IMG/VR virus record: IMGVR_UViG_3300043465_001344
Location: 1-54,944 of that record
Length of the DNA stretch: 54,944 nt
Source of the DNA: a virus
Strand: one strand, 5' to 3'
Shown here: positions 2,325 through 20,003 of the stretch, one piece after another
How the letters are laid out: each line of letters begins with the position of its first letter
How positions within the stretch are numbered: position 1 is the first letter of the stretch
The notes under the pieces: generated by a model
What the model was told of the DNA's origin: nothing
What the model saw: only the letters and a program-made list of their open reading frames with translations
Database searches by the model: none
Translations under genes and position numbers: made by a program

Positions 2325-2645
2325 TTATGTTTTCGGGGTGTGATAGCACATTATTCGCAGATTTTTTCCGGGAGCGTTTCTGTGATGCTCAGTATCAACC
2401 CCCCGCCACCACTAGAGAGAGAGGGTGTACTCCTTCATTCTCCACCCCCTTTCACTGGTGGTATAGGTTATTCTTAGTTATCGGATGAAGAGAAGGAGAC
2501 AAGAACAAGAGGGAAGAGGGTGTCGCGCCCCGCGCGCGACAGGTCACGGGCCTGTACCGTGCGCACAAGCCCCCATTATGTCTTGCGATTGCTTCGAAAC
2601 TTTAACCGTTAAACTTTTAACCTTCTAGCCCGAAAGGCTTACACC
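2325..2645. promoter_or_regulatory. non-coding regulatory stretch
   Basis: Longest stretch without a convincing gene (about 320 nt) and noticeably more AT-rich than its surroundings. It lies between a terminator and the next gene. It holds a purine-rich tract near 2490-2520, a 7-bp hairpin (2522-2528 with 2534-2540), and near its end the palindrome at 2601-2613. A promoter for the gene at 2646 is expected here, but no convincing -35/-10 pair was found. Confidence 0.5.
2601..2613. promoter_or_regulatory. TTTAAC/GTTAAA palindrome, copy 1
   Basis: TTTAACCGTTAAA: two perfect 6-bp inverted half-sites around one base, 32 nt before the ATG at 2646. An extra half-site (TTTTAAC) follows at 2615-2621. 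First of the 13-copy family seen only between 2.6 and 20 kb. The symmetry suggests a binding site for a dimeric protein. Confidence 0.65.
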
Positions 2646-3305
2646 ATGTTCAACGTTTCCACGCATACCGCCGCCGCTGTGCACAATGCCCGCGACGCCG
2701 CATCCAAAGCCGAAAAGGCGACGGGCAAAGTCGCCTCCACCATGACCGCCCTGTTTGTCGCGTTCATCGCGGCGGACCCGACGCTTTCCCTGAAGGCAAT
2801 CTCCGCCCTTGTCGGCGACAAGGTCCCGCAATCCAAGTCCGGGGGCGTCGCCGCCGTGCACAAGTCCCGCGCCAATACCTTTTTCAAGGACGCGGGGAAT
2901 ATGGCCGCCGCGCGGGCCGCTATCCCCTCGCCGGAGGCTATGGAACCGGAAGCCTTTCAGGCGGCCGTGACCGAATACGCCAAAGGGATCAATCCGCGAA
3001 AGTGGATCGATGAACAGAAGGCGGCCGAAAAGGCCGCGACCACGGCGGGGGCGGAGGCGAAGGCGGACAACGTCCGCGAAGAGGGCGAGGACGAACAGGC
3101 GGAGGGTGACGCCCCCCTGAACGCCGGGTTTGACCCGGTGCTCGCGGCTCAAACCGACGCCCTCAAGGCTATCGCGAACCTCCGCGAGATGCTGACGAAC
3201 GTTGACGCGCAAGTCGCGGAGGACGCCCTGAACGCCCTCCAGCGCGTGTTTGACAGCGCCGGCATCGCCCTCACCGGTGACGTCCCCATGGCGGTCGCAG
3301 TTTAA
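2646..3305 (+). CDS. hypothetical alpha-helical protein, 219 aa
   Basis: Ala/Glu/Lys-rich, apparently helical protein with a charged low-complexity middle (about residues 130-160), starting MFNVSTHT. It stands alone between a terminator plus palindrome upstream and a palindrome plus long hairpin downstream, so it looks like an independently transcribed single-gene cassette. Its stop codon TAA lies inside the downstream palindrome (3301-3313). Its coding sequence reads somewhat differently from its neighbours (runs of CGCGG and AAGG, more TTT), which may indicate transfer. No family recognised; a DNA-binding or virion role is possible but unsupported. Confidence 0.75.
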   Translation: MFNVSTHTAAAVHNARDAASKAEKATGKVASTMTALFVAFIAADPTLSLKAISALVGDKVPQSKSGGVAAVHKSRANTFFKDAGNMAAARAAIPSPEAMEPEAFQAAVTEYAKGINPRKWIDEQKAAEKAATTAGAEAKADNVREEGEDEQAEGDAPLNAGFDPVLAAQTDALKAIANLREMLTNVDAQVAEDALNALQRVFDSAGIALTGDVPMAVAV

Positions 3306-3313
3306 CGGTTAAA
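3301..3313. promoter_or_regulatory. TTTAAC/GTTAAA palindrome, copy 2
   Basis: TTTAACGGTTAAA with perfect 6-bp half-sites. It includes the TAA stop of the gene ending at 3305. Together with copy 3 it brackets the long hairpin at 3350-3415. Confidence 0.6.
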
Positions 3314-3349
3314 CTCGACCCCCTCCCAACCCCCTCGCCTCACGGCGGG

Positions 3350-3424
3350 GGGGATTTGGTCGTCCGCGTCCGCGCGCGTGCCTTACGCGCGCCTCGCGCG
3401 GACGACCAAATCCCCTTTCTTTTT
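3350..3424 (+). terminator. long hairpin with T tract
   Basis: A 19-bp perfect inverted repeat (3350-3368 with 3397-3415) encloses a second perfect 8-bp stem (3372-3379 with 3385-3392, loop GCCTT). It is followed at once by a T-rich tract, 3416-3424. It is a strong candidate terminator for the gene ending at 3305. The length is unusual for a terminator, so a cruciform or protein-bound role is also possible. Confidence 0.8.
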
Positions 3425-3435
3425 AACGCGTTAAA
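3422..3435. promoter_or_regulatory. TTTAAC/GTTAAA palindrome, copy 3
   Basis: TTTAACGCGTTAAA, a perfect 14-bp palindrome immediately after the long hairpin and 13 nt before the ATG at 3449. Confidence 0.65.
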
Positions 3436-3448
3436 GTGGAGCCTGAAA

Positions 3449-3670
3449 ATGCTGGATTTGGGAATACTGAGCCTGCGCTACGGCGGATTTTTCGTCGGGA
3501 CCATGACCATCGTCATCGCCAGCCTGTGCCTCGCGCAGCTGGGTCGCGAGTTGAAAGCCTGCCGCACGCGTCGCGAGGCGCGGAACGTCTGGGTCGAGAT
3601 CAACTGGGTTGTCGGCTACGCCACAGCCTTCCTTTCTGCCGCCACGATTTGCCTGATCGCGAGTTTTTAA
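3449..3670 (+). CDS. small membrane protein, 73 aa
   Basis: Two predicted transmembrane segments, roughly residues 5-28 (GGFFVGTMTIVIASLCLAQL region) and 52-72, joined by an Arg-rich loop. The start MLDLG was chosen because the upstream in-frame stretch runs through the long hairpin and palindrome. The stop TAA overlaps palindrome copy 4. Inner-membrane location is likely; function unknown. Confidence 0.65.
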   Translation: MLDLGILSLRYGGFFVGTMTIVIASLCLAQLGRELKACRTRREARNVWVEINWVVGYATAFLSAATICLIASF

Positions 3671-3679
3671 CATGTTAAA
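3666..3679. promoter_or_regulatory. TTTAAC/GTTAAA palindrome, copy 4, containing an ATG
   Basis: TTTAACATGTTAAA, a perfect 14-bp palindrome. It contains the stop of the upstream gene and, at its exact centre, the ATG (3672-3674) that opens the next frame. Confidence 0.65.
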
Positions 3680-4151
3680 AGTTGACAGCCGGTTCGGCCT
3701 CGAAAAGGTCGCCACCCGGGACCGCGGCCCAGTCCCGCGGCTCGCGACTACGGCCCCGCACAGTCTGGGCCTGCCCGAGGCCGCGTACCAGACGCACGGC
3801 ACGGCCGACATGGATTACGACCCTGTGGCGTTGGTCTGGGTCAAGAAGCCCCTGCCGCCCATCACCGGCCCGCGCGCCCCGGCCGTGACCCCGGTCCCGG
3901 CACGCGGTGCTGGCACGCGATACGAGGTCAAGGCGCGCGGGCAGCGGTTCTGGTTCGTGACCGCTCACACCACTGAGGAGGCGTGGGACGAGGTCGAGCG
4001 CCTGTGTCAGGCCAGCGGTTACGATGCGCGGGACGTCGTTCTGGAGCTGCACAAGCCGGCTCGCGTGGTGGGTCCGGGGCGGTCGCCCTTGGCCAGTGCT
4101 AGCGTTTCGGTCGCGGAGGTCAGGAAAAGGCTTTTGGGATCAAGGGCTTAG
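3672..4151 (+). CDS. hypothetical protein, 159 aa
   Basis: The frame opens at the ATG in the centre of palindrome copy 4. An alternative start is the ATG at 3810 (MDYDPVALVW), which would drop a low-complexity N terminus and leave 113 residues. The C-terminal part, about residues 85-130, has a compact alpha/beta look (RYEVKARGQRFWFVTAHTTEE region), similar to small phage proteins that convert an amino acid string over a WDEVE helix. No family named. Confidence 0.6.
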   Translation: MLKVDSRFGLEKVATRDRGPVPRLATTAPHSLGLPEAAYQTHGTADMDYDPVALVWVKKPLPPITGPRAPAVTPVPARGAGTRYEVKARGQRFWFVTAHTTEEAWDEVERLCQASGYDARDVVLELHKPARVVGPGRSPLASASVSVAEVRKRLLGSRA

Positions 4152-4271
4152 GTATTTGGCATAACAGAAAAAAAAGCCAAACCATTATCTTCTTTCATTT
4201 TTTATCCTAGAGAAAGAAAGAAAGAATAGAATATGGTTTGGCGGGTCGTCGCTGTTATGCCAAATAGCCTA
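4149..4271. repeat. nested AT-rich inverted repeat
   Basis: Outer arms of 15 bp, perfect (4153-4167 with 4252-4266), extended by TAGG/CCTA (4149-4152 with 4268-4271). Inner arms of 10 bp, perfect (4176-4185 with 4233-4242). Between them lies a polypyrimidine/polypurine core (TTCTTTC versus AGAAAGAAAGAAAG) with an A8 tract before the inner left arm. The element is far more AT-rich than its surroundings and has no gene. It could be a replication origin, a structured RNA, a terminator or a small mobile remnant; the sequence does not decide. Confidence 0.75.
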
Positions 4272-4361
4272 GCCTGCGCCAGAACGAGCTGGGCCACCCT
4301 TAAAACGAGGCGGCGAGACGCCAGTCTGGCTAGCAGCGCGATAGTGCGCAACAGTTATGAC

Positions 4362-4372
4362 TTCCACTGGAA
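4362..4372. promoter_or_regulatory. TTCCACTGGAA palindrome
   Basis: Palindromic 11-mer (one central base) just before the preferred start of the next gene. Similar sites lie at 23056, 43701 and 46372, all at gene boundaries. Role unknown. Confidence 0.3.
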
Positions 4373-4383
4373 AGCCTGAGCCT

Positions 4384-4908
4384 GTGACCGACGAAACTTT
4401 ACCCGTTAAAAAGCGGGGCCGCCGACCACAGTCGGTGCTCAAGAGGCTGGGCCGAGAGGGCCAGCTGGACGAGCACAGCTGGCCGGACCGGGCCTCGCCC
4501 TGTTGGGATGGCCCCGAGCTGATCAGCTACGGCGGCACGATGTGCCGAACCCCTCGCGCGTGCCTGAACGATACGATGCCGACACAGCTGACCAGCACGC
4601 AACAGTTGCAGTCGGTGTGCAAGCGCGACGGGTGTATCAACCCCCATCACTACCGGATTGCCGACCGGCGGAACCGGTCGGGCGAGCCGACCGTCCCCCT
4701 GCCCGACTGGGCGTTCATGCAGCACGTCCTCGAAGACGCGGAGCGTGAGAAGAACAAGCCACCCCAAGAGCGCCTCATGGAGTGCGCCATGGACGTGAGA
4801 CTGGCCCTGAACAGCGACCCTGACCTGAGCGACGCGGATCTCGCCGCGCGCTTCCAACACGCCTACACTGAGGAGCTAATCCGTGAAGCAAGAACCGTCG
4901 AGCTGTAA
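4384..4908 (+). CDS. HNH-like zinc-binding protein, 174 aa
   Basis: Contains a C-x4-CINPHHY stretch, the N-terminal half of an HNH-type nuclease fold (Cys pair then N-P-x-H), preceded by CRTPRACLN. The N terminus is Lys/Arg-rich, as in DNA-binding proteins. GTG 4384 was preferred over ATG 4357: it has the leader AAAGCCTGAGCCT, like those before 5411 and 13724, and ATG 4357 would include the TTCCACTGGAA site and lacks a Shine-Dalgarno. A degenerate palindrome (TTTACCCGTTAAA, 4398-4410) lies just inside the coding region. A catalytic role is uncertain, since a complete HNH triad is not obvious. Confidence 0.6.
   Translation: MTDETLPVKKRGRRPQSVLKRLGREGQLDEHSWPDRASPCWDGPELISYGGTMCRTPRACLNDTMPTQLTSTQQLQSVCKRDGCINPHHYRIADRRNRSGEPTVPLPDWAFMQHVLEDAEREKNKPPQERLMECAMDVRLALNSDPDLSDADLAARFQHAYTEELIREARTVEL
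4398..4410. promoter_or_regulatory. TTTAAC/GTTAAA-like palindrome, copy 5 (one mismatch)
   Basis: TTTACCCGTTAAA. The left half-site has one mismatch and the right one is intact. It lies inside the first codons of the HNH-like gene, unlike most other copies. Confidence 0.4.
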
Positions 4909-5287
4909 CATTCTCCGAAAAGCCCAAGACCTGATCCGCGACCCGCGACACTGGATCGGGGGCGACCTCTCCGAGAAACGCGCCATCGACCCAGCCTACG
5001 AGGCGTGCATCGTCTCCACCCTGCTCCCCGACGGGCGCTACGCCCCAGCCGAAGTGGGCAACGCTGACTGCTTCTGCGCCGGCCTCGCGATCACGCGAGC
5101 CTGCCGCGACCTCGGCGTCTACAGCGGCCCGACCCGCGATCTCGCCGTCCGCGCTATGAACGAGGCGGCCATCGACAGGTCCCAGACTGGCATCAGCCAG
5201 CTGGGCCAGTGGAACGACAACCGGACCCGCACCCATGACGAGGTCATGGCTGCGTTCGACGCCGCGATCAGCCGGGCCTCGGCCTGA
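4883..5287 (+). CDS. DUF6197-like protein, 134 aa
   Basis: Pattern of a helical start, then RDPRHWIGGDL, a Cys/Ala stretch (DCFCAGLAITRAC) and a C-terminal HDEVMAAFDAAI helix. This resembles the DUF6197 family common in phages and actinobacteria, by recalled pattern only. It overlaps the preceding gene by 26 nt. Function unknown. Confidence 0.65.
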   Translation: MKQEPSSCNILRKAQDLIRDPRHWIGGDLSEKRAIDPAYEACIVSTLLPDGRYAPAEVGNADCFCAGLAITRACRDLGVYSGPTRDLAVRAMNEAAIDRSQTGISQLGQWNDNRTRTHDEVMAAFDAAISRASA

Positions 5288-5320
5288 AGGCACTACGCCC
5301 TCCAGCGAAAGGAGCACACC

Positions 5321-5338
5321 ATGCCCCCGCCGGACTAA
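5321..5338 (+). promoter_or_regulatory. possible 5-codon leader peptide (MPPPD)
   Basis: ATG with a good Shine-Dalgarno (AAAGGAG) followed by three proline codons, Asp and TAA. It lies upstream of a perfect hairpin and the next gene. Polyproline tracts are known to stall ribosomes, so this could be a regulatory leader. It may also be chance. Confidence 0.3.
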
Positions 5339-5360
5339 AGCCCGGCACTCAACCACCACC

Positions 5361-5385
5361 GGCCCGGGCTCCCCCAGCCCGGGCC
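5361..5385 (+). other. perfect 10-bp GC hairpin
   Basis: GGCCCGGGCT pairs with AGCCCGGGCC around a CCCCC loop. It lies in the gap between 5287 and 5411 and no T run follows. Possible mRNA-stabilising or attenuating structure. Confidence 0.6.
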
Positions 5386-5410
5386 ACCCACCCTCACAAG
5401 GACCAAGCCT

Positions 5411-5866
5411 GTGACCCCACCCATCCTCGACCCCCAGAAAGTCGCCGCGGCCAGCCTTGAGGCCTACTACGCCGGCACCCTGTGCGCCCAGACCAACTTC
5501 GGCGGCGACTACGGGTCCGCGAGCGCCTTCTACATCACCGATGACACCAACTACCCCAACGCCCGCTGCGCTATCGGGGCCGGTATGACCGCCGAGCAAG
5601 CCCAGCTGGCCGAGCGCCGACCGGGCGTCCGCGACTACAGGATCTCCGGTCTCATCCTCGCTGGCCTGTTCCAGACCACGAGTATCGAGGCGATGAACGA
5701 TCTCCAGCTGCTTCAGCAGCTGCACGATATGTGGAGCACCCAGCGCATCAGCCGCACGCTCACGCCCCGCCCGGGCACCGCCGAAGAAACCCGGTTCGTC
5801 GAGTTTGCGACGGCCATGGCCAACAACACCGTCACCGACGAAATGCGCGACAGGCTGCGGACGTGA
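5411..5866 (+). CDS. hypothetical phage protein, 151 aa
   Basis: GTG start with Shine-Dalgarno AAGGA eight bases upstream. The sequence has GGDYGSASAFYITDD and NARCAIGAGMT stretches, a single conserved-looking Cys, then helical segments. It looks like a small cytoplasmic protein of a conserved phage type, but no named family is offered. Its stop overlaps the GTG of the next gene (GTGA). Confidence 0.65.
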   Translation: MTPPILDPQKVAAASLEAYYAGTLCAQTNFGGDYGSASAFYITDDTNYPNARCAIGAGMTAEQAQLAERRPGVRDYRISGLILAGLFQTTSIEAMNDLQLLQQLHDMWSTQRISRTLTPRPGTAEETRFVEFATAMANNTVTDEMRDRLRT

Positions 5867-6261
5867 CCAAACCAGCCCCCACCAACCCGGGCGACGTCGA
5901 GACCCTTCTCGCCGCCGACCTCGACACCCGCGTCTTCTGGGGTCCGCCCATCAGCCAGACGCACGCACTGGTCCTCGCCGCGCTCGACCTGCCACCCCGC
6001 CGCCCACCAGTGGGCTTCTCGGGCCGGGCCACCGTGACCAGCGACGGTCACATCATGTGCAACTTCACCACGGCCGAGGACGAGCACCACCACGGGGCCT
6101 ACGCCGGCCACATCGACCAGCTGGCCGTCTACCTCGACTACCTCACCACCGAGCTGCAGCTGGACCCAGTCCAAACGCTCGAACTCCAGCGCAGCCTCGA
6201 CGCGTTCATCACCACCTCCTACGAGGCTCGGCCGACCAAGTTCGCGCCACAATCCCATTAA
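5863..6261 (+). CDS. hypothetical protein, 132 aa
   Basis: GTG start in a GTGA overlap with the previous gene. Acidic, His-rich in the middle (DEHHHGAYAGHIDQ region), with a C-terminal helix. The gene ends right before palindrome copy 6. No family recognised. Confidence 0.6.
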   Translation: MTKPAPTNPGDVETLLAADLDTRVFWGPPISQTHALVLAALDLPPRRPPVGFSGRATVTSDGHIMCNFTTAEDEHHHGAYAGHIDQLAVYLDYLTTELQLDPVQTLELQRSLDAFITTSYEARPTKFAPQSH

Positions 6262-6263
6262 AC

Positions 6264-6277
6264 TTTAACGGGTTAAA
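6264..6277. promoter_or_regulatory. TTTAAC/GTTAAA palindrome, copy 6
   Basis: TTTAACGGGTTAAA, with perfect 6-bp half-sites around GG, ends 3 nt before the ATG at 6281. The central GGG sits at Shine-Dalgarno distance (8 nt) from that ATG, and no other ribosome binding site is visible. Confidence 0.7.
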
Positions 6278-6280
6278 ATC

Positions 6281-6724
6281 ATGTCTCTGAACATCCCGCG
6301 CCTCACCGAGCTGGCCGACCACCTCGACGGCGTGCCCGACGAGAAGTTCGACCTGTCGAACTGGTTCAGCACCGAGCCGGGCATCCCACTGTTCGTCAAA
6401 TGGGACACCCCGATCACCCCGGGCTGCCAGACCTGCGCCTGCATCGCCGGCGAGACGCTCGTGCTCTTCGCCCCGGACACGGCGGTCACCATACCCGCAG
6501 TCCAACACAGAGCCGCGGAACTGCTGGGCCTCACCCACCCCCTGAACGAGTGGCTGTTCGTGCCCCGGGAATACGACAGCGTCGTCGAGGACGAGGAGGA
6601 CACCGACGAGCCTGACGTCCTGCCCGAAGGCTGGCGGATGACCGACGTAAAGCCTGATCAGGCCGCCCGGGTCATCCGTCATCTGATCGAGACCCAAACC
6701 GTTGACTGGAGGATACTGCGGTGA
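6281..6724 (+). CDS. hypothetical protein, CxxCxA paralogue family member 1
   Basis: Shares its architecture with the genes at 7281 and 9029: a helical N terminus ending in FDL/FDM, a Cys-rich turn (here GCQTCACIAGE, elsewhere CGTxxCIxGWA), then a variable region. The C terminus DQAARVIRHLIETQTVDW is nearly the same as in the 9029 protein (EQAARVLDHLIETGEVDW). This copy lacks the GWA of the turn. It starts 3 nt after palindrome copy 6. Function unknown; the paired cysteines could bind metal. Confidence 0.7.
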   Translation: MSLNIPRLTELADHLDGVPDEKFDLSNWFSTEPGIPLFVKWDTPITPGCQTCACIAGETLVLFAPDTAVTIPAVQHRAAELLGLTHPLNEWLFVPREYDSVVEDEEDTDEPDVLPEGWRMTDVKPDQAARVIRHLIETQTVDWRILR

Positions 6725-7077
6725 CCGTGCGCCTCCCCTTCACCATCGAGGCCGACGCGCTCCTCATCACTGCCCACCCCCACATGGCGGTCGACTTCAA
6801 CGACGAGGACTACGACAGCAACGAGCTGGTCGACATCTCGGGGTTCAGCGCCCGCACCCAGTCCGAGGGCCACGGCACCCGGGCGATGACCGCGATCACC
6901 GAGCTGGCCGACCAGCATCAGGTCGGGCTCGAGGTTTTCGCGGGCGTCAAGGCCGATGGTTGCGACGCCACCCGCCTCATCGACTTCTACAGCCGCTTCG
7001 GCTTCGTCCTCCAACCCACCCCATGGGACGAGGAGTGCGGCCTCGGCCGGCCGTGGCTCATAAGGAGACCCCAATGA
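6721..7077 (+). CDS. GNAT-like acetyltransferase domain protein, 118 aa
   Basis: GTG start in a GTGA overlap. Residues around 48-60 (GHGTRAMTAITELAD) match the acetyl-CoA-binding motif A of GNAT proteins (R/Q-x-x-G-x-G), and DFYSRFGFVL near residues 89-98 matches the motif B end. It is shorter than typical GNATs, so the N-terminal strands may be reduced. A substrate cannot be inferred. Confidence 0.65.
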   Translation: MTVRLPFTIEADALLITAHPHMAVDFNDEDYDSNELVDISGFSARTQSEGHGTRAMTAITELADQHQVGLEVFAGVKADGCDATRLIDFYSRFGFVLQPTPWDEECGLGRPWLIRRPQ

Positions 7078-7277
7078 GCGTCCCCCACCTCGCCGCCCGT
7101 CTTGTCCCTGCCCACCAGCGGCACTGGCTCGGCGACAGCTGCCGGCTGCAGAGCGACAAATGCCTGATCGTCCCGGTCAGCCGCCTCACCTCCGAAGCCA
7201 CGAAGATCAACCACTTCTGGGACACCCTTCAACAACGACCTCTCATCGACGAGGTCATGTTCACCATCGAGGACTGA
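7074..7277 (+). CDS. hypothetical protein, 67 aa
   Basis: ATGA overlap with the GNAT-like gene. Basic N-terminal half, acidic C terminus. No recognised domain; supported by position in a tightly packed operon. Confidence 0.55.
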   Translation: MSVPHLAARLVPAHQRHWLGDSCRLQSDKCLIVPVSRLTSEATKINHFWDTLQQRPLIDEVMFTIED

Positions 7278-7280
7278 GCC

Positions 7281-7640
7281 ATGAACCCCAACCTGAAACT
7301 GGTCCGCGACCGTATCGCCGAGGCCCCTGAACGCCTGCTGGATATGAGCGAGACCGGTATGCCGCACTGCGGCACGCCGGGCTGCATCATCGGCTGGGCT
7401 CAGAGCCTGAAGCCCGAGCTGGTCGGCGCACCCTTTCACACCATCTACGCCGCCCTCGGCTTGGACGAGGAACAGGGCAACAACCTGAGCCTCGGCCTCG
7501 CCCCGACGCCGCTGATCGCCCAGAACCACATCACCAAGGATGAGGTCCTGACCGCCATCGACAGCCTGCTGGTCGACCCCACCCGGGTCATGCCCAAGTG
7601 GCCGCGCCGCGTTCGGTCCATCGCGGAGAACTGGGGGTGA
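7281..7640 (+). CDS. hypothetical protein, CGTPGCIIGWA paralogue family member 2
   Basis: Starts with a helix (LKLVRDRIAEAPERLLDM) closely parallel to that of the 9029 protein (IRLVRDMILAHPTQFDM). A CGTPGCIIGWAQ turn and an ALGL segment follow. The C terminus differs from the paralogues and is basic. It lies three bases after the previous stop. One of three related genes within 3.2 kb, suggesting duplication; role unknown. Confidence 0.7.
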   Translation: MNPNLKLVRDRIAEAPERLLDMSETGMPHCGTPGCIIGWAQSLKPELVGAPFHTIYAALGLDEEQGNNLSLGLAPTPLIAQNHITKDEVLTAIDSLLVDPTRVMPKWPRRVRSIAENWG

Positions 7641-7801
7641 GGATCTGGAGGTGCGAGATCAACTGCGGATGCTACATCATCCGTCCCTTCGAAGCGTGGG
7701 GTGAGACCCTTTGGTCGCTGACCAAGGGTGTCTTCTACATCTGCGCCATCATCATCATGGTGTGGCTCACCCACACCATTTTAACGGGTAAAATGTCATG
7801 A
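7637..7801 (+). CDS. small membrane protein, 54 aa
   Basis: GTG start in a GTGA overlap with the previous gene. Residues 32-50 (GVFYICAIIIMVWLTHTIL) form one clear transmembrane segment. Two Cys lie in the N-terminal part. Palindrome copy 7 lies inside its last codons and its stop overlaps the next ATG. Confidence 0.6.
   Translation: MRIWRCEINCGCYIIRPFEAWGETLWSLTKGVFYICAIIIMVWLTHTILTGKMS
7780..7792. promoter_or_regulatory. TTTAACGGGTAAA palindrome variant, copy 7
   Basis: Within the longer TTTTAACGGGTAAAA (7779-7793). The right half-site lacks one T. It ends 5 nt before the ATG at 7798, with GGG at 7786-7788 nine bases from the start codon. Confidence 0.65.
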
Positions 7802-8025
7802 ATGAGCCCCGATACATCGTCGCGACCTGCCCCAAGGAGGGGCCGGAACGCTTCTTCCCTATCGCCCAGCCGGGCGGTGGCCCGGTCGAGTATCCCGACC
7901 ACGCTGAGGCCATGGCCGTCGGCGAGCAACAGCTACGCACCGGTGGCCAGCGCGCGTTCCAGATCTGGACCGTGAGCGAGACCTACGAGATCGTGGTCGA
8001 GATCAAGCCGAGGCTGGCGGCATGA
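7798..8025 (+). CDS. hypothetical protein, 75 aa
   Basis: Starts MNEPRYIVATC five bases after palindrome copy 7, which overlaps its only plausible ribosome binding position. Ends in an ATGA overlap with the next gene. Beta-rich in appearance; no family recognised. Confidence 0.6.
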   Translation: MNEPRYIVATCPKEGPERFFPIAQPGGGPVEYPDHAEAMAVGEQQLRTGGQRAFQIWTVSETYEIVVEIKPRLAA

Positions 8026-8821: not shown

Positions 8822-8865
8822 GACCGGGCGCGAACCGCAAGCGTCAATGGAAAAGGACACCCAAG

Positions 8866-9039
8866 ATGCGCGACTACGAACAACAGCAGGCCGCCCGACG
8901 GGCCAAGGAGGACGCCCGCGAGGCGCTCTTCGAGCAGATCATCAGCGGCGTCGCCGCGATTTTAACGGGTAAAGCCAGCATCGCCGCTGACCGCGACGGT
9001 GAGCGGACCCTCTACAGGGTCATCCCCGATGCAGAATAA
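8866..9039 (+). CDS. hypothetical helical protein, 57 aa
   Basis: The ATG at 8866 was chosen because AAAAGGA lies eight bases upstream; a GTG at 8818 overlapping the previous stop would add 16 residues. Charged helix (QQQAARRAKEDAREALFEQ), then a short strand region. Contains palindrome copy 8 in its coding sequence. Confidence 0.5.
   Translation: MRDYEQQQAARRAKEDAREALFEQIISGVAAILTGKASIAADRDGERTLYRVIPDAE
8961..8973. promoter_or_regulatory. TTTAACGGGTAAA palindrome variant, copy 8
   Basis: Same variant as copies 7, 10 and 11, but located inside a coding sequence 55 nt upstream of the ATG at 9029. It encodes the in-frame residues LTGK. Confidence 0.5.
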
Positions 9040-10066: not shown

Positions 10067-10080
10067 TTTAACAGGTTAAA
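10067..10080. promoter_or_regulatory. TTTAAC/GTTAAA palindrome, copy 9
   Basis: TTTAACAGGTTAAA, perfect half-sites around AG, ending 5 nt before the ATG at 10086. The central AGG lies about 10 nt before that ATG. Confidence 0.7.
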
Positions 10081-10085: not shown

Positions 10086-12026
10086 ATGTTCTCAGACTTC
10101 TCCAAAATCGTCCATGCGACGTTCGGCCGAATGGCCGGCGTCGAGCTGTTCAAGGTCGACACCTCGGACCTCTTCGAGGTCTACCTGTCGGCCTTCCCCG
10201 AGGGCACCAACCCGATCTTCCGCGAGCGGACCGAGCACGACTGCTCGTGCTGCAAGAACTTCATCCGCAACATCGGCAATGTCGTCGCCATCATCGACGG
10301 CCGGGTCGTGACCGTCTGGGACGACTACGCCTCCGCGCCAGCTCCCTACGACGTCGTCGGCCGCGTCCTCGCCGAGCGCGTCCGGCAGGCCCCGATCCGG
10401 GGCGTGTGGCGCACCAAGGAGCGCCAGTACAGCCAAGAGACCTCCGTCGAAATGATGGGGGATCGTGCCCACACATGGCACCACTTCGCGGCCCGGGTGC
10501 CGGACAAGAACTTCAGCCTGACGCCTGACAAGGCCGCTGGTGACATCAACACCACCGCCCACGTCCTGCGCCGCGGCCTGAACGAGATCACTCTCGACGC
10601 TCTCGACACCGTGATCGATCTGGCCGAGGCCAACAACCTGCTCCGCGGCACCGAGTTCCTGCCGGCGATTAAGGGCTTCCGCGCCCTCCGCGCTCAGTGG
10701 ACCGGCGACGAACTGCTGATCTGGCAGAACCTCGACGACCGCTCGGCCCGCTTCCGCAACACAGCCATCGGCACGCTCCTGCTCGAGCTGTCGGCTGGCG
10801 AAGAGCTGGAGAAGGCCGTCGGCAAGTACGAGAACATGGTCTCGGGCACCAACTACAAGCGCCCGACCGCCCTCGTGACGCCCAAGATGATCGAGGCCGC
10901 CGTGACCAAGATCGACGAGCTGGGTCTGCGAGGCTCGGTCGAGCGCCGCCATGCACGGATCGAGGACCTGTCGATCAACGACGTTCTGTTCGTCGACAAC
11001 GCCTCGGCCAGCCAGATGCGGGATAGCCTCGCTGACACCCTGATGGCCTCAGCCTCGCGCCCCGTGGCCTCGGTCAAGAACCCCCAACCGATCTCGGCCG
11101 AGGACTTCTTCACCAAGAGCTACACCTCAATCAGCGCGCTGGTCGAGAACCGCCACGGCCCCAACTTCATGAGCCTGACCGCCCCGGTCGACACGACCGA
11201 GGGCCGGCTGTTCAGCTGGAACAACGACTTCAGCTGGTCCTATGACGGTGACGTCGCCGACAGCATCAAGCAGCGGGTCAAGGCCGCCGGCGGCAACGTG
11301 GACGCCAAGTTCCGCGTCAGCCTCGCGTGGTTCAACACCGACGATCTGGACCTGCACTGCTACACACCGGGGGGTCGGCACGTCTACTTCGGCTCGAAGC
11401 AAGGCATCCTTGATGTCGATGCGAACGGCCCGAGCGTGACCAACCGGCGTGACCCCGTCGAGAACATGGCCTTCACTTCGGTCGAGGATGGGACCTATCG
11501 CTTCGATGTCCACCAGTACAGCCGACGCAACTCGCACGACGTCGGCTTCACGCTGGAAATCCAGATCGGCGCGCAGATTATGCAGTACAGCTACGCCCCG
11601 ATGGTCGTCGGCACGGTCAAGGCAATCTCGATCACCCTGCAGGGTGGCCAGTTCGTCGACATGGTCCTGCACACGGACCTGACCGGCGGTGGCTTCTCGG
11701 CCGAAAAGTGGGGCGTCAGCACCGAGCAGCTGGTCCCCGTCGAAACGCTGATGCTCAGCCCCAACTTCTGGAACGGGCAGACCGTCGGCAACAAGCACTG
11801 GTTCTTCATCCTGCGTGGGTGCAAGAACCCGGACCCCGTCCGCGGCATCTACAACGAGTATCTGCGGCCGGACCTGAATGAGCACCGCAAGGTGTTCGAG
11901 GTGCTCGGATCCAAGACCAAGGCTCCGTTCGCCGAAGACCAGCTCTCCGGGCTGGGCTTCTCTTCCACCCAGAGGAACACCCTCACCGTAGTCGCGGATG
12001 GTCGCGCCTACGAAATCCAGTTCTGA
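10086..12026 (+). CDS. large conserved phage protein with YfaP-like domain, 646 aa
   Basis: The N-terminal ~200 residues include a Cys cluster (HDCSCCKNF, about residues 54-62) followed by GNVVAIIDGR. The middle, about residues 410-500, matches the pattern of YfaP/DUF2135-type beta-sandwich domains: LAWFNTDDLDLHCYTPGG, a LDVDANG stretch, DPVENMAF and DGTYRFDVHQYSRR. The C terminus is compact and hydrophobic. Such proteins occur in many large phages without an assigned role. It follows palindrome copy 9 and is paired with the next gene. Cytoplasmic location is assumed, as no signal peptide is seen. Confidence 0.75.
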   Translation: MFSDFSKIVHATFGRMAGVELFKVDTSDLFEVYLSAFPEGTNPIFRERTEHDCSCCKNFIRNIGNVVAIIDGRVVTVWDDYASAPAPYDVVGRVLAERVRQAPIRGVWRTKERQYSQETSVEMMGDRAHTWHHFAARVPDKNFSLTPDKAAGDINTTAHVLRRGLNEITLDALDTVIDLAEANNLLRGTEFLPAIKGFRALRAQWTGDELLIWQNLDDRSARFRNTAIGTLLLELSAGEELEKAVGKYENMVSGTNYKRPTALVTPKMIEAAVTKIDELGLRGSVERRHARIEDLSINDVLFVDNASASQMRDSLADTLMASASRPVASVKNPQPISAEDFFTKSYTSISALVENRHGPNFMSLTAPVDTTEGRLFSWNNDFSWSYDGDVADSIKQRVKAAGGNVDAKFRVSLAWFNTDDLDLHCYTPGGRHVYFGSKQGILDVDANGPSVTNRRDPVENMAFTSVEDGTYRFDVHQYSRRNSHDVGFTLEIQIGAQIMQYSYAPMVVGTVKAISITLQGGQFVDMVLHTDLTGGGFSAEKWGVSTEQLVPVETLMLSPNFWNGQTVGNKHWFFILRGCKNPDPVRGIYNEYLRPDLNEHRKVFEVLGSKTKAPFAEDQLSGLGFSSTQRNTLTVVADGRAYEIQF

Positions 12027-12443: not shown

Positions 12444-12465
12444 GCCCCGGGCTTCGGCCCGGGGC
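12444..12465 (+). terminator. TTCG-loop hairpin
   Basis: Perfect 9-bp stem GCCCCGGGC/GCCCGGGGC with a TTCG tetraloop, 10 nt after a stop codon. The nearest T run is the TTTT of palindrome copy 10 at 12472. Likely terminator or 3'-end stabiliser. Confidence 0.6.
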
Positions 12466-12472
12466 ACCAGAT

Positions 12473-12485
12473 TTTAACGGGTAAA
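12473..12485. promoter_or_regulatory. TTTAACGGGTAAA palindrome variant, copy 10
   Basis: Ends 5 nt before the ATG at 12491, with GGG (12479-12481) nine bases before it. No other ribosome binding site is visible. Confidence 0.65.
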
Positions 12486-12490
12486 CTCCA

Positions 12491-13709: not shown

Positions 13710-13723
13710 GAAAGACCAAGCCT

Positions 13724-14614: not shown

Positions 14615-14623
14615 CCTGAGCCC

Positions 14624-14647
14624 GGGCCGGTCCTTCGGGGCCGGCCC
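14624..14647 (+). terminator. GC-rich hairpin after 14614
   Basis: GGGCCGG pairs with CCGGCCC across a loop containing TTCG. It lies 10 nt after the stop and 13 nt before palindrome copy 11. No own T run, so terminator activity is uncertain. Confidence 0.5.
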
Positions 14648-14659
14648 ACCCCTCCAGAT

Positions 14660-14672
14660 TTTAACGGGTAAA
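14660..14672. promoter_or_regulatory. TTTAACGGGTAAA palindrome variant, copy 11
   Basis: Part of TTTTAACGGGTAAAA (14659-14673), ending 5 nt before the ATG at 14678. GGG is nine bases from the ATG. Nearly identical in sequence and spacing to copies 7 and 10. Confidence 0.65.
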
Positions 14673-14677
14673 ATCCA

Positions 14678-15139
14678 ATGAGCGGACCGATCTACTTCAA
14701 CGGCATCGTCGACCTGAAGCCGGACACCACCATCCGCGAGGTGCTCAACCTCTACTGGGAGAATGGGTGCCCGTGGGACGACGACGAAGACCTGACCGAC
14801 GTCACCCACGAGTACAACGACTTCGACAATCAGGTGCGCCTCGTGATCGAGGGCGGCCAGCTGGGCTACACCGTCGACTTCAGCGACGGCTCCTACGACT
14901 TCGTCGACCAGTTCGAGGGCTTCCTCAAGGCCATCGCCGAACAGTACGCCACCAAGGGGTGGATCAGCTGGGAAGGCGAACCCGGCGACGACCAACAGCA
15001 GGTCGCCTACGGCCTGACTGAACTCGACAGGCTGCGTGCTGCCGCTGACCAAGCCGGCCTCGAACTCGAGGCCGCTCAGGACAAGTACAAGCGAGCGGTG
15101 GAGGCCCTGACCAGTGCAGCGCAAACCCCGGCCCAGTAA
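14678..15139 (+). CDS. hypothetical protein, 153 aa
   Basis: Starts MSGPIYFNGIVDLKPDTTIREV. Acidic first two thirds with beta strands and a WDDDEDL stretch, then a C-terminal helix (about residues 113-145) likely to form a coiled coil. First gene after palindrome copy 11. Function unknown. Confidence 0.6.
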   Translation: MSGPIYFNGIVDLKPDTTIREVLNLYWENGCPWDDDEDLTDVTHEYNDFDNQVRLVIEGGQLGYTVDFSDGSYDFVDQFEGFLKAIAEQYATKGWISWEGEPGDDQQQVAYGLTELDRLRAAADQAGLELEAAQDKYKRAVEALTSAAQTPAQ

Positions 15140-15189
15140 CCCGTACCCCGTGCCGACCAACGCGAGCACGCTCCACAAGGACTTCGACA

Positions 15190-15474
15190 ATGATTACCCC
15201 CGAGAGAGCCTACGAGATTGCCTCCCAGTGGGGGTCCTATATCTCAGCGGGCGACAACGGCGTGCCGTTCGTGAGCTTTCCGAAGAATGACGGAACGCCC
15301 GTCTCGCCGGGCCATCAAGAAGCCTGCATCGACTACACGATCAACCTGCTGGCCAACGCCAAGGAGGTTGATCGTTCCGACCTGATCGCGCTGCTGTACT
15401 TCTTCGACCAGACAGCCCCGCGTGACCTGCCCACCCCCTCAGACCTGAACCTCGGAGAAGACCCATGGAACTGA
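15190..15474 (+). CDS. hypothetical protein, 94 aa
   Basis: ATG preceded by an AAGGA in CACAAGGACTTCGACA. Small acidic protein with a helical middle (CIDYTINLLANAKEVDRSDLI is split across two helices). Overlaps the KTSC gene by 10 nt. No family recognised. Confidence 0.6.
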   Translation: MITPERAYEIASQWGSYISAGDNGVPFVSFPKNDGTPVSPGHQEACIDYTINLLANAKEVDRSDLIALLYFFDQTAPRDLPTPSDLNLGEDPWN

Positions 15475-15686
15475 TCCCCGTCGAGAGCTCGAACCTCGAC
15501 CGCGTCGGCTACGACACCGACACCAAGACCCTGCGCGTGCTGTTCAAGAACGGCCGGACCTACGACTACACCGGCGTCCCCGCCGTCATGTTCGGCCAGC
15601 TGCTCGCCGCCGAGAGCGTCGGCAAGTTCCTGAACGGGAGCATCAAGCCGCACTACGCCGTCACCGAGGTCAAGGCCGATGGCTAG
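15465..15686 (+). CDS. KTSC domain protein, 73 aa
   Basis: Whole protein matches the KTSC pattern: SSNLDRVGYD, TLRVLFKNGRTYDYTGVP, then LLAAESVGKFLNGSIK near residues 45-60. KTSC domains are small folds found alone in phages or attached to tRNA-synthetase-like and other proteins; their role is unclear. ATG with GGAG upstream. Usual length for the family. Confidence 0.8.
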   Translation: MELIPVESSNLDRVGYDTDTKTLRVLFKNGRTYDYTGVPAVMFGQLLAAESVGKFLNGSIKPHYAVTEVKADG

Positions 15687-15915
15687 GCAGTTCATCCAGA
15701 TCCCGTGGTCCAAGAAACTGGGCCTCGCCTACTGGGGCCGGAACCGCTCCGGCTCCCAGTGCGGGATTGCCCTCTACCCGGCTCAGGGTGAGACACCCTC
15801 GGTCGTCCTCATGCCCATCAACAGCCTCGCGCTGTCCACCACCGCCGCTCAGCTGGAAGTGCCCAAGTCGCACATCCCGACGCTGATCAAGGCCCTTCAG
15901 GAGATGATCTCGTGA
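15679..15915 (+). CDS. hypothetical protein, 78 aa
   Basis: Overlaps the KTSC gene by 8 nt and the next GTG by 4 nt. Basic, beta-rich start (QFIQIPWSKKLGLAYWGRN) and a C-terminal helix. Function unknown. Confidence 0.55.
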   Translation: MARQFIQIPWSKKLGLAYWGRNRSGSQCGIALYPAQGETPSVVLMPINSLALSTTAAQLEVPKSHIPTLIKALQEMIS

Positions 15916-16313
15916 AAATCTACGCCAGAATGTGTCAGGAGAACGAAGAGGACGAGCTGATCGTCTTCTTCATCCCGAAGGAGCGGCTGTTCCAGCTGCG
16001 GGAAATCTGCGTCGCGAACGGCCTCAGCGAGGCCTGCATCGAGATGCCGACCTACGTCCGCCACGCGTGGCCCGAGACCATCCCCTCCGATGGCTTCGTC
16101 TCAGTCGAAACCCGCTCTGAGTGGGCGGCCGGCCGCTTCGAGGACATCGAGTTCTCCGACCACCGCAACGTCGATCTGAGCCAGAGCCTGCTGGAGACCC
16201 TGCACGTCGGGGCCAACGGCGCGGTTCACATCGAGTGCCGCGGCGGGCCGGCCGGCGAGTGGTGGTCCGAGGGCCTCGACCTGCAGGAGATCGCGACCTA
16301 TGCCGAGGTATAG
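15912..16313 (+). CDS. hypothetical protein, 133 aa
   Basis: GTG start in a GTGA overlap. Acidic; the strands EDELIVFFIPKERLFQLREI are followed by a C-terminal half with a GGPAGEWW turn. No recognised family. Confidence 0.55.
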   Translation: MKIYARMCQENEEDELIVFFIPKERLFQLREICVANGLSEACIEMPTYVRHAWPETIPSDGFVSVETRSEWAAGRFEDIEFSDHRNVDLSQSLLETLHVGANGAVHIECRGGPAGEWWSEGLDLQEIATYAEV

Positions 16314-16500
16314 CGTGAGGCTGGTCTGCGACGCCACCGCGTGGGCGGATGTCGTTGTGGAAGCCGACAGCCCGGAGGCCGCTGTCGAGCTCGCCACCGA
16401 TGAGCAGCACCGCAACAGCGCCAAGTGGGAGCTGTCCGACGGCAACTACCTGAAGCGCGACGACATCTCGGCTGAGCTGGACGAAGTCACCCAACTTTAA
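16300..16500 (+). CDS. hypothetical protein, 66 aa
   Basis: Small protein starting MPRYSVRLVCDATAWADVVVEADS followed by a PEAAVELATDE helix, a beta-beta-alpha pattern like the short DpnD/PcfM-type modules. The match is by eye only. Overlaps the previous gene by 14 nt; its TAA stop is part of palindrome copy 12. Confidence 0.55.
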   Translation: MPRYSVRLVCDATAWADVVVEADSPEAAVELATDEQHRNSAKWELSDGNYLKRDDISAELDEVTQL

Positions 16501-16508
16501 CTGTTAAA
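16496..16508. promoter_or_regulatory. TTTAAC/GTTAAA palindrome, copy 12
   Basis: TTTAACTGTTAAA with perfect half-sites, overlapping the stop of the upstream gene, 18 nt before the rIIA-like ATG. Unlike other copies, a separate Shine-Dalgarno (AGAAGGA) follows it. Confidence 0.65.
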
Positions 16509-16526
16509 AATCAGAAGGATACGACC

Positions 16527-18746
16527 ATGCGTTCCGACGCTTTCAAAAGAGACGTCTCGGTCAGCGAAGAGCTGCCGACCGCGGCGTTCACCATCCAAGG
16601 CAACGCGAAGATGTTCAGCATCCTCGCCGACAAGCTCTACTCCGACAAGCCGCGCGCCGTGATCCGCGAGATCAGCGCCAACGCGCTGGACGCCCACGGC
16701 ATGAACGGCCAGACCCGGCCGTTCGACATCAGCCTGCCGAACCACATGGAGCCGATGCTCATCATTCGCGACTACGGTCCGGGCATGAGCGACGACGACG
16801 TGATGATGATGTACACCTCGTTCGGTGCCTCGACCAAGGATCAGGGCAACGACGCCATCGGCGGCTTCGGTCTGGGCTGCAAGTCGCCCTTCGCCTATGC
16901 CGACGCCTTCACCGTCTCGTCGGTACAGGCCGGCGTCAAGCGGAACTACGCCGCCTACCGGGGGTCCGACGGCATCCCGCAGATGACCCGCGTCGGCGAG
17001 GAAGCCACCGATGAGCCGGACGGCATCAAGGTCTGTGTCCCGATCAAGGACAACGACTGGTGGACGTTCGAGCAGACCGCCATCGATCTGCTGCAGCACT
17101 TCCCCGAGGGCTCCTTCAACCCCCACGGCATCGAGGTCTCGGCCATCGAATACGTCTCGAAGCACGACGGCTACTGGGTCCGCAAGGCCAAGCCCCCGAA
17201 GCCCTACGTCCTGATGGGTCCCATCGCCTACCCGGTGGACTGGACCCTGATCCTCGAAGAGGGCGACGTCGCTCTGCCTGAGACCGTCATCATGGTCTTC
17301 GACATCGGCTCGCTCGACCTGCAGCCGAACCGCGAGGGCCTGTCCTACGACAACCTGACGCTGGCCACCCTGCGCCAGCGGTACCGGTCCATCGCTGACG
17401 CCTACGCCGAAGAGCAGTTCGCCCTCATCCAGAAGCTGAACCGCTTCGAGCAGGTGCTGCACATCGCCAGCCTGAAGGAAAACAAGACGTGGTCGATGAT
17501 CGCCAAGCGGTGGCCGACGACCTACGAGGAGCGCAAGGAGGGCGACAAGAGCGTTCTGCGCAAGGAGCTGACCACCGAGGGCTTCCCGGGCATCACCGAC
17601 CGAGTCGACATCGCCGGCCGCCCCTCGACCACGCGCCTCGACGCCAAGGGCCATAAGGGCGTTTCGTTCGACGTCTACACCACCCGGCCCGAGAAGCTGG
17701 CGCTGGAGGCCAAGGACCTCAACGAGCGGTCGATCTTCATCTTCGACGACATGCAGGCAGACGGTGATTTCAAGCGCCGGCTGACCTCGCGCTACAAGCA
17801 GGCCTGCCATGACCGCGGTCTGAACGCAGCCCGCTTCTACCTCTTCGACAAGGAGCCGGGCGTCTACAACTCGTTGAAGCGGGAGTTCGAGGACATCGCG
17901 CCGACCTATGCGACCTTCGAAGACCTGCAGGCCGCGCTCGTCGGCTGGGCGCACGCCGACACCAACGTCGTCCGCCTGTCCGACCTGCCCACCATGGCTG
18001 CCGCAGTGCGCAGCGGCACCGGTCGCAAGACCGAGCTGCGCGTGACCGGTATCCGGCTGGGTCAGAACCACCACACCAACAGCGCCCGCTGGTACGCGAA
18101 CTGCTGGGAAGAGCAGCCCGGTCTGGCCGAAGGCGGCGTCTACGCGCCTCTCTCCGGCACTGGTCTGGAGGACGGCTTCCCGCAGGGCATCATGAACTGC
18201 GAGTGGCGTCTGCAGGAACTGCCGCTGTTGCTCGGCCTGACCAAGAAGGCCCGGGACCAGATCCGCAAGGACGGCACGACCGAGGACTATGTCCGTCTCG
18301 ACGTCTATCTGCGTGAGCGGTACGACAACGAGATCGCTGACGAGGCGATCCTGAACGAGCTGGCCCGTCAGGCCACCATGGCGGACTTCTCCAAGGACCC
18401 GGTCGCCGTGGCTGCGCTCAGCATCGCGCAACGCCGCCCCGAACTGTTCCCGTCGATCACGGAGCGCGTGGCTCCGCTGATCGACCCGGGGCAGGCCATC
18501 CGCACCCGGGTCAGCCGCCTGCGGGACTACGCCACCCGGGCCAAGCTCGTGCTGCCCAAGGTGAAGAAGTTCAAGGTCTCCGCGATCAAGGAGATCCACA
18601 AGGTCCACGACCGGTCGCCGCTCCTGCGGACGCTGGTTAAGTCGGAGCGGTCGCAGGACTATTCCATCCTGCGCCACTTCGATCACGAAGACCTGATGGC
18701 CTTCGCCGGCATCCGCCGGACGCTGGCCAAGACGGTCGAAGAGTAG
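16527..18746 (+). CDS. rIIA-like GHKL ATPase, 739 aa
   Basis: N-terminal GHKL ATPase fold: N-box REISANALDA (E48, N52, D55), DYGPGMS (82-88) and GGFGLGCKS (112-120). The rest of the protein and its pairing with an rIIB-like gene match rIIA proteins of large phages. In T4, rIIA and rIIB are membrane-associated and needed for growth on lambda lysogens (exclusion by Rex). Preceded by palindrome copy 12 and AGAAGGA. Probably acts with the next gene product. Confidence 0.85.
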   Translation: MRSDAFKRDVSVSEELPTAAFTIQGNAKMFSILADKLYSDKPRAVIREISANALDAHGMNGQTRPFDISLPNHMEPMLIIRDYGPGMSDDDVMMMYTSFGASTKDQGNDAIGGFGLGCKSPFAYADAFTVSSVQAGVKRNYAAYRGSDGIPQMTRVGEEATDEPDGIKVCVPIKDNDWWTFEQTAIDLLQHFPEGSFNPHGIEVSAIEYVSKHDGYWVRKAKPPKPYVLMGPIAYPVDWTLILEEGDVALPETVIMVFDIGSLDLQPNREGLSYDNLTLATLRQRYRSIADAYAEEQFALIQKLNRFEQVLHIASLKENKTWSMIAKRWPTTYEERKEGDKSVLRKELTTEGFPGITDRVDIAGRPSTTRLDAKGHKGVSFDVYTTRPEKLALEAKDLNERSIFIFDDMQADGDFKRRLTSRYKQACHDRGLNAARFYLFDKEPGVYNSLKREFEDIAPTYATFEDLQAALVGWAHADTNVVRLSDLPTMAAAVRSGTGRKTELRVTGIRLGQNHHTNSARWYANCWEEQPGLAEGGVYAPLSGTGLEDGFPQGIMNCEWRLQELPLLLGLTKKARDQIRKDGTTEDYVRLDVYLRERYDNEIADEAILNELARQATMADFSKDPVAVAALSIAQRRPELFPSITERVAPLIDPGQAIRTRVSRLRDYATRAKLVLPKVKKFKVSAIKEIHKVHDRSPLLRTLVKSERSQDYSILRHFDHEDLMAFAGIRRTLAKTVEE

Positions 18747-18781
18747 TAGCCTACCTCCACCCACCCTGTAAGGACAAGACA

Positions 18782-19987
18782 ATGAACCCCGTGATCTCCA
18801 TCACAAGCGCCGACAGCGTGACCGTGTTCGTGGCTGGCAAGCCCTTCACGGTCGCGTCCGACAACCCCCGATACGACGAGCTGAAAGCCGCCATCTCGGC
18901 GGGCGATCTCGATCTCGTGGACGGGATCGTCAACGCCTCCACCCGCCTCACGAAAGTCCTCGGCGTCTACGGCGACGTCGCGGTCTTCGCCGGCCACGTC
19001 ACCTTCCAAGGCCGCCCGGTCAAGACCAGTCTGGTCGAGCGGCTGCTGAAGATGGTCAATCAGGGCCGCGACCCTGAACCCTACGCCCGGTTCCTCGACC
19101 GCGTCATGCGCAACCCCACCAAGGATGCGATCTCGATGTTGTTCGACTGGGTCGAGAAGGCCGACCTGCCCATCCTGCCGGACGGGCGGTTCCTCGCCTA
19201 TCGCTACGTCAACATGGCCTACCTCGACGCCCACACGCGGACCATGGACAACACGCCGGGCCGGGTCATCCGCATGCCCCGCGAGGCGTGCGACGAGAAC
19301 CACCAGAACACCTGCTCACGCGGCCTGCACTTCTGCAACCACACCTACCTGAAGAGCATGTCCGGCTACCGCTGCCTCATCATGGCCGAGGACCCCGCCG
19401 ACGTCGTGAGCTTCCCGCAGGACGGCGGCGGCTCCAAGGGCCGCACCGAGAAGCACGAGGCCCTGTTCGAGATCTCGATGGACGACGCCCGCGAGGGCAT
19501 CTTCTTCGAGGGCGAGGACAAGCTGGTCTTCGACTTCGACCGGGTCGAGCACTACCAGCGCCTGCAGCTGGTCTTCCTCGCCGCCGAAGGTGAGGACGCC
19601 AGTGAGTTTCTGGCGGCCTACGACGCCGGTTATCGCGTCGTCTGGAGCGAAGTCGACGGCGACCAGTGGGGTCTGACCATCGCGGATCGTGTCATTGACA
19701 GCTACCCCACCCGCGCCGCGGCGTGGCAGGCTGCGGTCGACATGAACATCCACAACGTGGCCCCGTCGGAGGAGGCCGAGGTGGCCGCCATGGACGACGA
19801 CGCGACCGAGACCTTCTCGGGCCGTCTGTCTGCGATTGAGAACCAGCTGGCGATCAGTCTCATCTACGGCAACGAAGGGACGTTCAGCGAGCGCCTCGAC
19901 CGCATCGAGTTTGAGCTGGGTCTGACCGACCACACCCCGCCGCAGATCGATCGACTGACCCGCGCCGAGCAAGCCGCCGGCTTGTAA
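18782..19987 (+). CDS. rIIB-like protein, 401 aa
   Basis: Features of the rIIB family: a VFVAGKPFTVASDNPRYDEL start, then about residues 115-225 with LPDGRFLAYRYV, CSRGLHFCNHTYL and the C-x-R-G-L-H-F pattern that I associate with rIIB-like proteins. ATG with AAGGA 7 nt upstream, 36 nt after rIIA. The C-terminal ~80 residues are acidic and repetitive (two similar SERLDRIE / SGRLSAIEN helices). Palindrome copy 13 and a hairpin follow. Confidence 0.85.
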   Translation: MNPVISITSADSVTVFVAGKPFTVASDNPRYDELKAAISAGDLDLVDGIVNASTRLTKVLGVYGDVAVFAGHVTFQGRPVKTSLVERLLKMVNQGRDPEPYARFLDRVMRNPTKDAISMLFDWVEKADLPILPDGRFLAYRYVNMAYLDAHTRTMDNTPGRVIRMPREACDENHQNTCSRGLHFCNHTYLKSMSGYRCLIMAEDPADVVSFPQDGGGSKGRTEKHEALFEISMDDAREGIFFEGEDKLVFDFDRVEHYQRLQLVFLAAEGEDASEFLAAYDAGYRVVWSEVDGDQWGLTIADRVIDSYPTRAAAWQAAVDMNIHNVAPSEEAEVAAMDDDATETFSGRLSAIENQLAISLIYGNEGTFSERLDRIEFELGLTDHTPPQIDRLTRAEQAAGL

Positions 19988-19989
19988 GG

Positions 19990-20003
19990 TTTAACGCGTT
20001 AAA
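19990..20003. promoter_or_regulatory. TTTAAC/GTTAAA palindrome, copy 13
   Basis: TTTAACGCGTTAAA, a perfect 14-bp palindrome identical to copy 3. Here it lies between the rIIB-like stop and a hairpin, 50 nt before the next ATG. It is the last copy in the window. Confidence 0.65.

Follow-up and report, generated by a model that had tools for sequence, protein, structure and literature searches.

A lineage-specific palindrome array in the early genes of a Seuss-like phage and a candidate phage-encoded regulator

We analyzed a 54,944-bp stretch of viral DNA in full (IMG/VR record IMGVR_UViG_3300043465_001344; hereafter the window) and found that the 13-copy array of the palindrome TTTAAC-N1/2-GTTAAA in its early genes is one case among at least eight related phages (11-12 including weaker arrays), with a palindrome that differs between lineages. 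On balance we favor, at a probability of roughly 0.55, an operator or stoperator array read by a phage-encoded dimeric protein, the product of the gene at 2646-3305, which would silence the early genes.

The palindrome array and its gene context

By its sequence, the window comes from a Seuss-like phage whose genome it covers only in part. Alignments with Caulobacter phage Seuss gave 80% nucleotide identity for the primase and amino acid identities of 67% for the DNA polymerase and 41% for rIIA, and the gene order matched when the window was read in the opposite direction. The common order is primase, left-end early genes, small unknown genes, rIIA-rIIB, replication genes and then late genes, the last on the other strand; in Seuss the left-end early genes lie within the terminal repeat. 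The early block was the most gene-variable region, and the sites flank its gene cassettes. A long imperfect inverted repeat at 4145-4274 (23-nt and 15-nt arm pairs; RNA fold of about -55 kcal/mol) occupies a non-coding gap right after the ortholog of Seuss gp001, near the end of the Seuss terminal repeat by gene order. At the far end, a minus-strand ORF of 2671 aa (46929-54944) that resembles central tail fibre J of Seuss runs off the window.

The original prediction listed 13 copies, mostly with perfect 6-mer half-sites around one or two bases plus a variant form, and we found all 13 where it had placed them (Table 1), eight of them perfect and five variant. Four variants read TTTAACGGGTAAA and the fifth is the reverse complement, TTTACCCGTTAAA; these are the only asymmetric sites of the array, and four of the five share one orientation. 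Every plus-strand GTTAAA in the window was part of a site, as was every plus-strand TTTAAC except one at 2616, which adjoins site 2601. The supposed rarity of such a 12-base AT-rich match was borne out by dinucleotide shuffles (8 perfect sites observed vs 0.00 expected; 10 vs 0.06 when up to two mismatches were allowed), and 59 permuted half-sites of the same composition gave no N1-2 palindrome in the window. Shuffles, permuted half-sites and the positional conservation described below together rule out a chance repeat. As had been claimed for 1-2.6 kb and the DNA after 20 kb, no further site occurred in the window outside 2601-20003, even with two mismatches. The clustering had a p-value of ~1e-5 against uniform placement, and the array spans exactly the region from the first post-primase gene to the end of rIIB.

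The proposed check for enrichment upstream of ATGs showed an excess of sites near them: 9 of the 13 sites lay within about 40 nt of an ATG (ORFs of at least 60 aa) as compared to 22% of nearby positions (p = 4e-4). The claim that most sites sit at gene boundaries needs correction for 4398 and 8961, which are inside reading frames; other exceptions are 3301, over a stop codon, 19990, after rIIB, and 3666, which encloses a start codon. The idea of a regulatory element for the block including rIIA-rIIB gained from the retention of position in relatives and the absence of sites elsewhere in the genome. Its second half, a role in initiation, was unsupported, because no promoter stood out (one sigma70-like promoter found in the block vs 1.8 expected, a consensus that host or phage promoters may not fit) and sites also occurred at 3' ends and within genes. 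Rfam and tRNA searches returned no matches. A perfect 19-bp hairpin with a 28-nt loop (3350-3415) is located between sites 3301 and 3422.

Table 1. Palindromic sites and selected genes of the window, with partner sites in relative G003 and in Seuss
Feature	Position	Strand	Sequence and context	G003 partner	Seuss partner
Site 1	2601..2613	.	TTTAACCGTTAAA; perfect; ATG of candidate regulator gene 32 nt downstream	65283	84919
Site 2	3301..3313	.	TTTAACGGTTAAA; perfect; overlaps stop codon of 2646-3305	64599	
Site 3	3422..3435	.	TTTAACGCGTTAAA; perfect; ATG of 73-aa gene 13 nt downstream	64493	84121
Site 4	3666..3679	.	TTTAACATGTTAAA; perfect; ATG of next gene, 3672-4151, within spacer	64239	
Site 5	4398..4410	.	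TTTACCCGTTAAA; variant; within ORF 4357-4908		
Site 6	6264..6277	.	TTTAACGGGTTAAA; perfect; ATG 3 nt downstream; GGG at Shine-Dalgarno position		
Site 7	7780..7792	.	TTTAACGGGTAAA; variant; ATG 5 nt downstream		
Site 8	8961..8973	.	TTTAACGGGTAAA; variant; within ORF 8866-9039	no partner	
Site 9	10067..10080	.	TTTAACAGGTTAAA; perfect; ATG of 10086-12026 5 nt downstream	57933	76136
Site 10	12473..12485	.	TTTAACGGGTAAA; variant; ATG 5 nt downstream	55438 (identical sequence)	
Site 11	14660..14672	.	TTTAACGGGTAAA; variant; ATG 5 nt downstream	53574	
Site 12	16496..16508	.	TTTAACTGTTAAA; perfect; rIIA start 18 nt downstream	49635	68952
Site 13	19990..20003	.	TTTAACGCGTTAAA; perfect; rIIB stop on one side, hairpin on the other	46233	
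Candidate regulator gene	2646..3305	+	219 aa, function unknown, phrog_33105; first after primase, a site on each side		
rIIA-like gene	16527..18746	+	739 aa		
rIIB-like gene	18782..19987	+	401 aa; 43% match to Seuss rIIB		
Rival candidate regulator	23083..23526	+	147 aa; Seuss gp077 family; HTH-like in two regions; no neighbouring site		

Conserved positions and private palindromes in related phages

Relatives were retrieved by DNA-polymerase alignment; single-protein scans with rIIA and with the 2646-3305 product retrieved none, and alignments that included Seuss succeeded. The nearest large relative, G003 (80.8 kb), had a DNA polymerase match of 83-84% and carried 12 sites between 46.2 and 65.3 kb, of which 11 are perfect and one is a GGGTAAA variant. 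Conservation in relatives had been another proposed check, and 11 of the 12 G003 sites paired by position with window sites. The flanks of paired sites (60 bp on each side) were mostly ~50-60% identical. The half-sites kept their 12 bases apart from a single inward position in the GGGTAAA variants, and a site with an N1 centre could be paired with an N2 site. The TTTAAC-N-GTTAAA motif was absent from Seuss, which instead had nine TTTACC-N2/3-GGTAAA sites (e.g. TTTACCTGAGGTAAA) that precede the orthologs of four site-bearing window genes, namely 2646-3305, the next gene, 10086-12026 (gp101-like) and rIIA. Since both arms changed together in Seuss, the pattern fits a symmetric DNA site read by a dimer. 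The paper on the Seuss genome does not mention the repeats (PMC4591317).

We also searched de novo for over-represented palindromes with shuffled controls, keeping the best of many palindromes for each genome. This identified GTTCGT-N-ACGAAC in JWF (12 sites) and Achromobacter phage 2-1 (11 sites), GGGGTAAC-GTTACCCC in KB12-38 (10 sites), and TTACTA-N3-TAGTAA in Lumi (7 sites, and 11 more with one mismatch). Two metagenomic relatives, G006 and G007, carried arrays of GCTTAA (4 sites) and GTGCGAC (5-8 sites), respectively, and weaker arrays in G008 (GGTTCAAAATTTGAACC, 3 sites) and G009 (CCTAACTAAGTTAGG, 2 sites) were recognised mainly by position. For JWF, 2-1, KB12-38, Lumi, G006 and G007 the p-values of the arrays ranged from 1e-11 to 1e-35, while the best of ten shuffles of a genome never went below 4e-8, and each operator sequence was found solely within its own group of genomes. 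The Acinetobacter members fJoAci01, EAb13 and Mystique had no array above shuffles. In a forward test, G010, which was retrieved solely through a post-primase protein 72% like that of JWF, had 10 copies of the JWF operator, confined to 68.2-79.6 kb of its 80.4 kb. A scan of genome contigs with the JWF-type protein retrieved no relatives. Operators private to each phage or its close kin point to a virus-made on/off protein whose specificity would be fast-changing.

Other repeats were noted in two of these phages. G008 (IMGVR_UViG_3300037789_000055) has a further family of palindromes, ATTTCCGGAAAT (6 copies, p 2e-17), at 1833, 6662, 53848, 58919, 58983 and 62111, which is genome-wide and apparently unlinked to the post-primase gene. 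Downstream of most KB12-38 sites (34089-60015) lies a conserved leader (about TAATTAAACTAAAACT..GGATTGACA), possibly a phage promoter, with an ATG 34-36 nt away from the site. A scan of viral contigs for TTTTAACGGGTAAAAT..ATG yielded 10 unrelated, mostly AT-rich contigs with one copy each, which we discarded as chance matches.

The candidate regulator and competing readings

We infer from gene position and sequence comparison that the regulator is probably the product of the unannotated post-primase gene (2646-3305 in the window), ahead of the HTH protein discussed below. A site preceded this gene in 11 of the 11 genomes examined, and in most of them another lay at or after its end (in KB12-38 the candidate is the gene between the first two sites and not the first after the primase). 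When fixed distance limits were applied, sites on both sides were found in 7 of the 11 genomes; the second site was 180-390 nt away in JWF, 2-1 and G007 and inside the 3' end of the gene in G008. The encoded proteins in these 11 genomes are 211-287 aa long and of unknown function, and their identity tracked the operator: proteins 66-74% identical went with the same operator, those at ~29-36% with related but changed operators, and unrelated proteins with different ones. Profile comparison detected no homology between the seven sequence-unrelated forms. Models of two unrelated forms, one of them built on an alignment made up solely of proteins from contig-search loci, reached a mean pLDDT of 63.5 and 67.6 (modest confidence). 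In both, some 140 residues at the N terminus form a helical domain, which a disordered linker joins to a pair of C-terminal helices. Searches of the candidate against Pfam, PHROGs, PDB sequences and folds gave no significant DNA-binding family or fold, and the regulator class would be new if confirmed. We tentatively extend this to the Seuss/JWF-like phages, mostly without a detected integrase, which might carry immunity-like operators read in private codes by an unrecognised and very fast-diverging class of protein.

In the favored mechanism, the 13 sites would be double-stranded DNA operators, stoperator-like, along an early unit that begins at the left end of the genome and finishes with rIIB. 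We infer the identity of the regulator, its DNA binding, the repression, its mechanism and the superinfection exclusion. A dimer would contact the two fixed half-sites and tolerate a centre of 1-2 bp, a centre that varies by 1 bp (N1/N2, N2/N3) being unusual for a rigid dimer and a point against the model. Once made, the regulator would sit on the sites and obstruct RNA polymerase, or ribosomes where a site and the Shine-Dalgarno region overlap. The early genes including rIIA-rIIB would as a result be turned down later in infection; the early genes of an incoming related phage might be silenced too (superinfection exclusion). Because sites flank 2646-3305 on both sides, its product would also control itself. 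The sites resemble stoperators more than promoter operators: they occur at gene boundaries and within genes, one lies beyond the last gene, and the block shows no excess of sigma70-like promoters.

The two-HTH protein at 23083-23526, which adjoins the replication genes and was the regulator suggested by the original prediction, is an unlikely reader of the array, though one that needs to be weighed. Its two HTH matches, weak as they are, were real, homologs occurred in most group members, and Cro/CI-like dimers are suited by 13-15 bp palindromes. The presumed recognition helix is SRVVVRNMEVG in both phages with the common operator and SRVRIRTMEVG in Seuss; since divergence of the HTH proteins among the nearest phages parallels that of the post-primase proteins, such correlation alone cannot separate the two candidates. 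What argues against the HTH protein is that the nearest site is more than 3 kb from its gene, that no homolog was found in KB12-38 despite the 10 sites there, and that JWF and Lumi have similar helices (WTTHKLAAIEKG and WSVQKIASIGKG) with operators that are not alike. Moreover, the copy in Achromobacter phage 2-1 (60558-61754) has apparently lost its frame after the recognition helix, through a sequencing error or a truncation. The post-primase gene, which adjoins sites in every genome examined, is the better candidate.

It is rather improbable that the sites act instead at the level of RNA or translation, as start-associated hairpins or ribosome-site elements read by a translational regulator or an RNase. 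Five window sites are indeed followed by an ATG after 3-5 nt and have GGG or AGG at the Shine-Dalgarno position, Seuss sites have GAGG or GGAG 1-6 nt ahead of the ATG, and those of KB12-38 and G007 could form stable hairpins (about -8 kcal/mol). No RNA fold was predicted for the window sites, however, which rules out an RNA hairpin for the window phage, and fixed arms around variable centre bases are the reverse of usual hairpin recognition. Symmetry in JWF and KB12-38 extends right to the centre or to within one base of it, which a hairpin loop could not use, and other sites are found in coding sequence, across stop codons or at 3' ends. The element is best read as duplex DNA, and some start-near sites are probably also ribosome sites because of the GGG, AGG or GAGG at the Shine-Dalgarno position.

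We consider it very unlikely that the sites are recombination or cassette-boundary elements for early-gene shuffling, or bind a compaction, partition or replication protein. Cassettes in the highly variable early block are flanked by sites, and recombination at repeats was inferred in relatives of Corndog (PMC4351075), but the sites stay beside orthologous genes despite the diverged flanks and lie near start codons more often than expected by chance. Capture of host regulator sites is barely credible: CtrA in Caulobacter, the host of Seuss, reads TTAA-N7-TTAA and the window sites do hold TTAA twice, but at a spacing of 3-4 in the perfect sites and not 7, the Seuss sites lack a TTAA pair, and the palindrome is wholly different between related phages.

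Comparison with known phage repeats

The Streptomyces phage phiC31, an integrating temperate phage, has conserved inverted-repeat repressor sites between its early genes; the window array would share this arrangement, while the phiC31 sites are promoter-linked. Searches for an integrase-type recombinase gave none in the window, G003, Seuss, JWF, 2-1, Lumi, G006, G007 or G010, several of these records being fragments, and tyrosine recombinase matches were present in G008 (57214-57702), G009 (15847-16266) and KB12-38 (77759-78238). Lumi forms clear plaques. JWF was called temperate in later papers (PMC9959647).

The start-associated sequence (SAS) of Cluster K mycobacteriophages, GGGATAGGAGCCC, is asymmetric, lies 3-7 bp before start codons and is nearly always start-linked (PMC3203893). 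The window sites are likewise short repeats a few nucleotides before non-structural gene starts, some with Shine-Dalgarno bases, but they differ from SAS in sequence and symmetry, and only the five start-near sites mentioned above have such a position. Stoperators of Cluster A phages (L5, Bxb1) are numerous 13-bp sites, mostly not promoter-associated, that block transcription elongation; their motif differs between phages and tracks the sequence of the repressor, which carries a further DNA-binding domain besides its HTH and binds DNA as a monomer (PMC6550527, PMC9283540). The window sites would act in a similar way, and they agree with stoperators in being repeated many times away from promoters, frequently close to gene boundaries. 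Unlike the asymmetric, genome-wide Cluster A sites, which are mostly in one orientation, 8 of the 13 window sites are perfectly palindromic and all are confined to 2.6-20.0 kb, and the favored regulator is without a recognisable HTH.

The nearest case in the literature is that of the Cluster O mycobacteriophages (Corndog), which carry 34 genome-wide copies of a 17-bp palindrome, TGTTCGG-N3-CCGAACA, with no regulator assigned; the authors predict dimeric DNA-binding proteins for such palindromes (PMC4351075). Like these repeats, the window sites include many identical perfect palindromes, mostly intergenic or near 5' ends, in phages without a detected integrase, with invariant dyad arms, a variable centre and no link to promoters. 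The motif itself is different, and whereas Cluster O has one sequence in five close relatives, the sites described here are limited to the early block, lineage-specific and adjoined by a candidate regulator gene. If nearly every lineage has its own operator code, silencing of early genes could be restricted to close kin; immunity-like codes private to each lineage would then exist in phages with no sign of an integrase, with consequences for superinfection, co-infection and phage mixtures. The question that the multi-copy palindromes of Corndog and its relatives pose, namely which regulator reads them (PMC4351075), can now be addressed in cultured phages, for example Seuss infecting Caulobacter crescentus CB15, because the comparison of twelve genomes supplied a named candidate protein, several matched pairs of operator and protein, and a forward prediction that proved correct.
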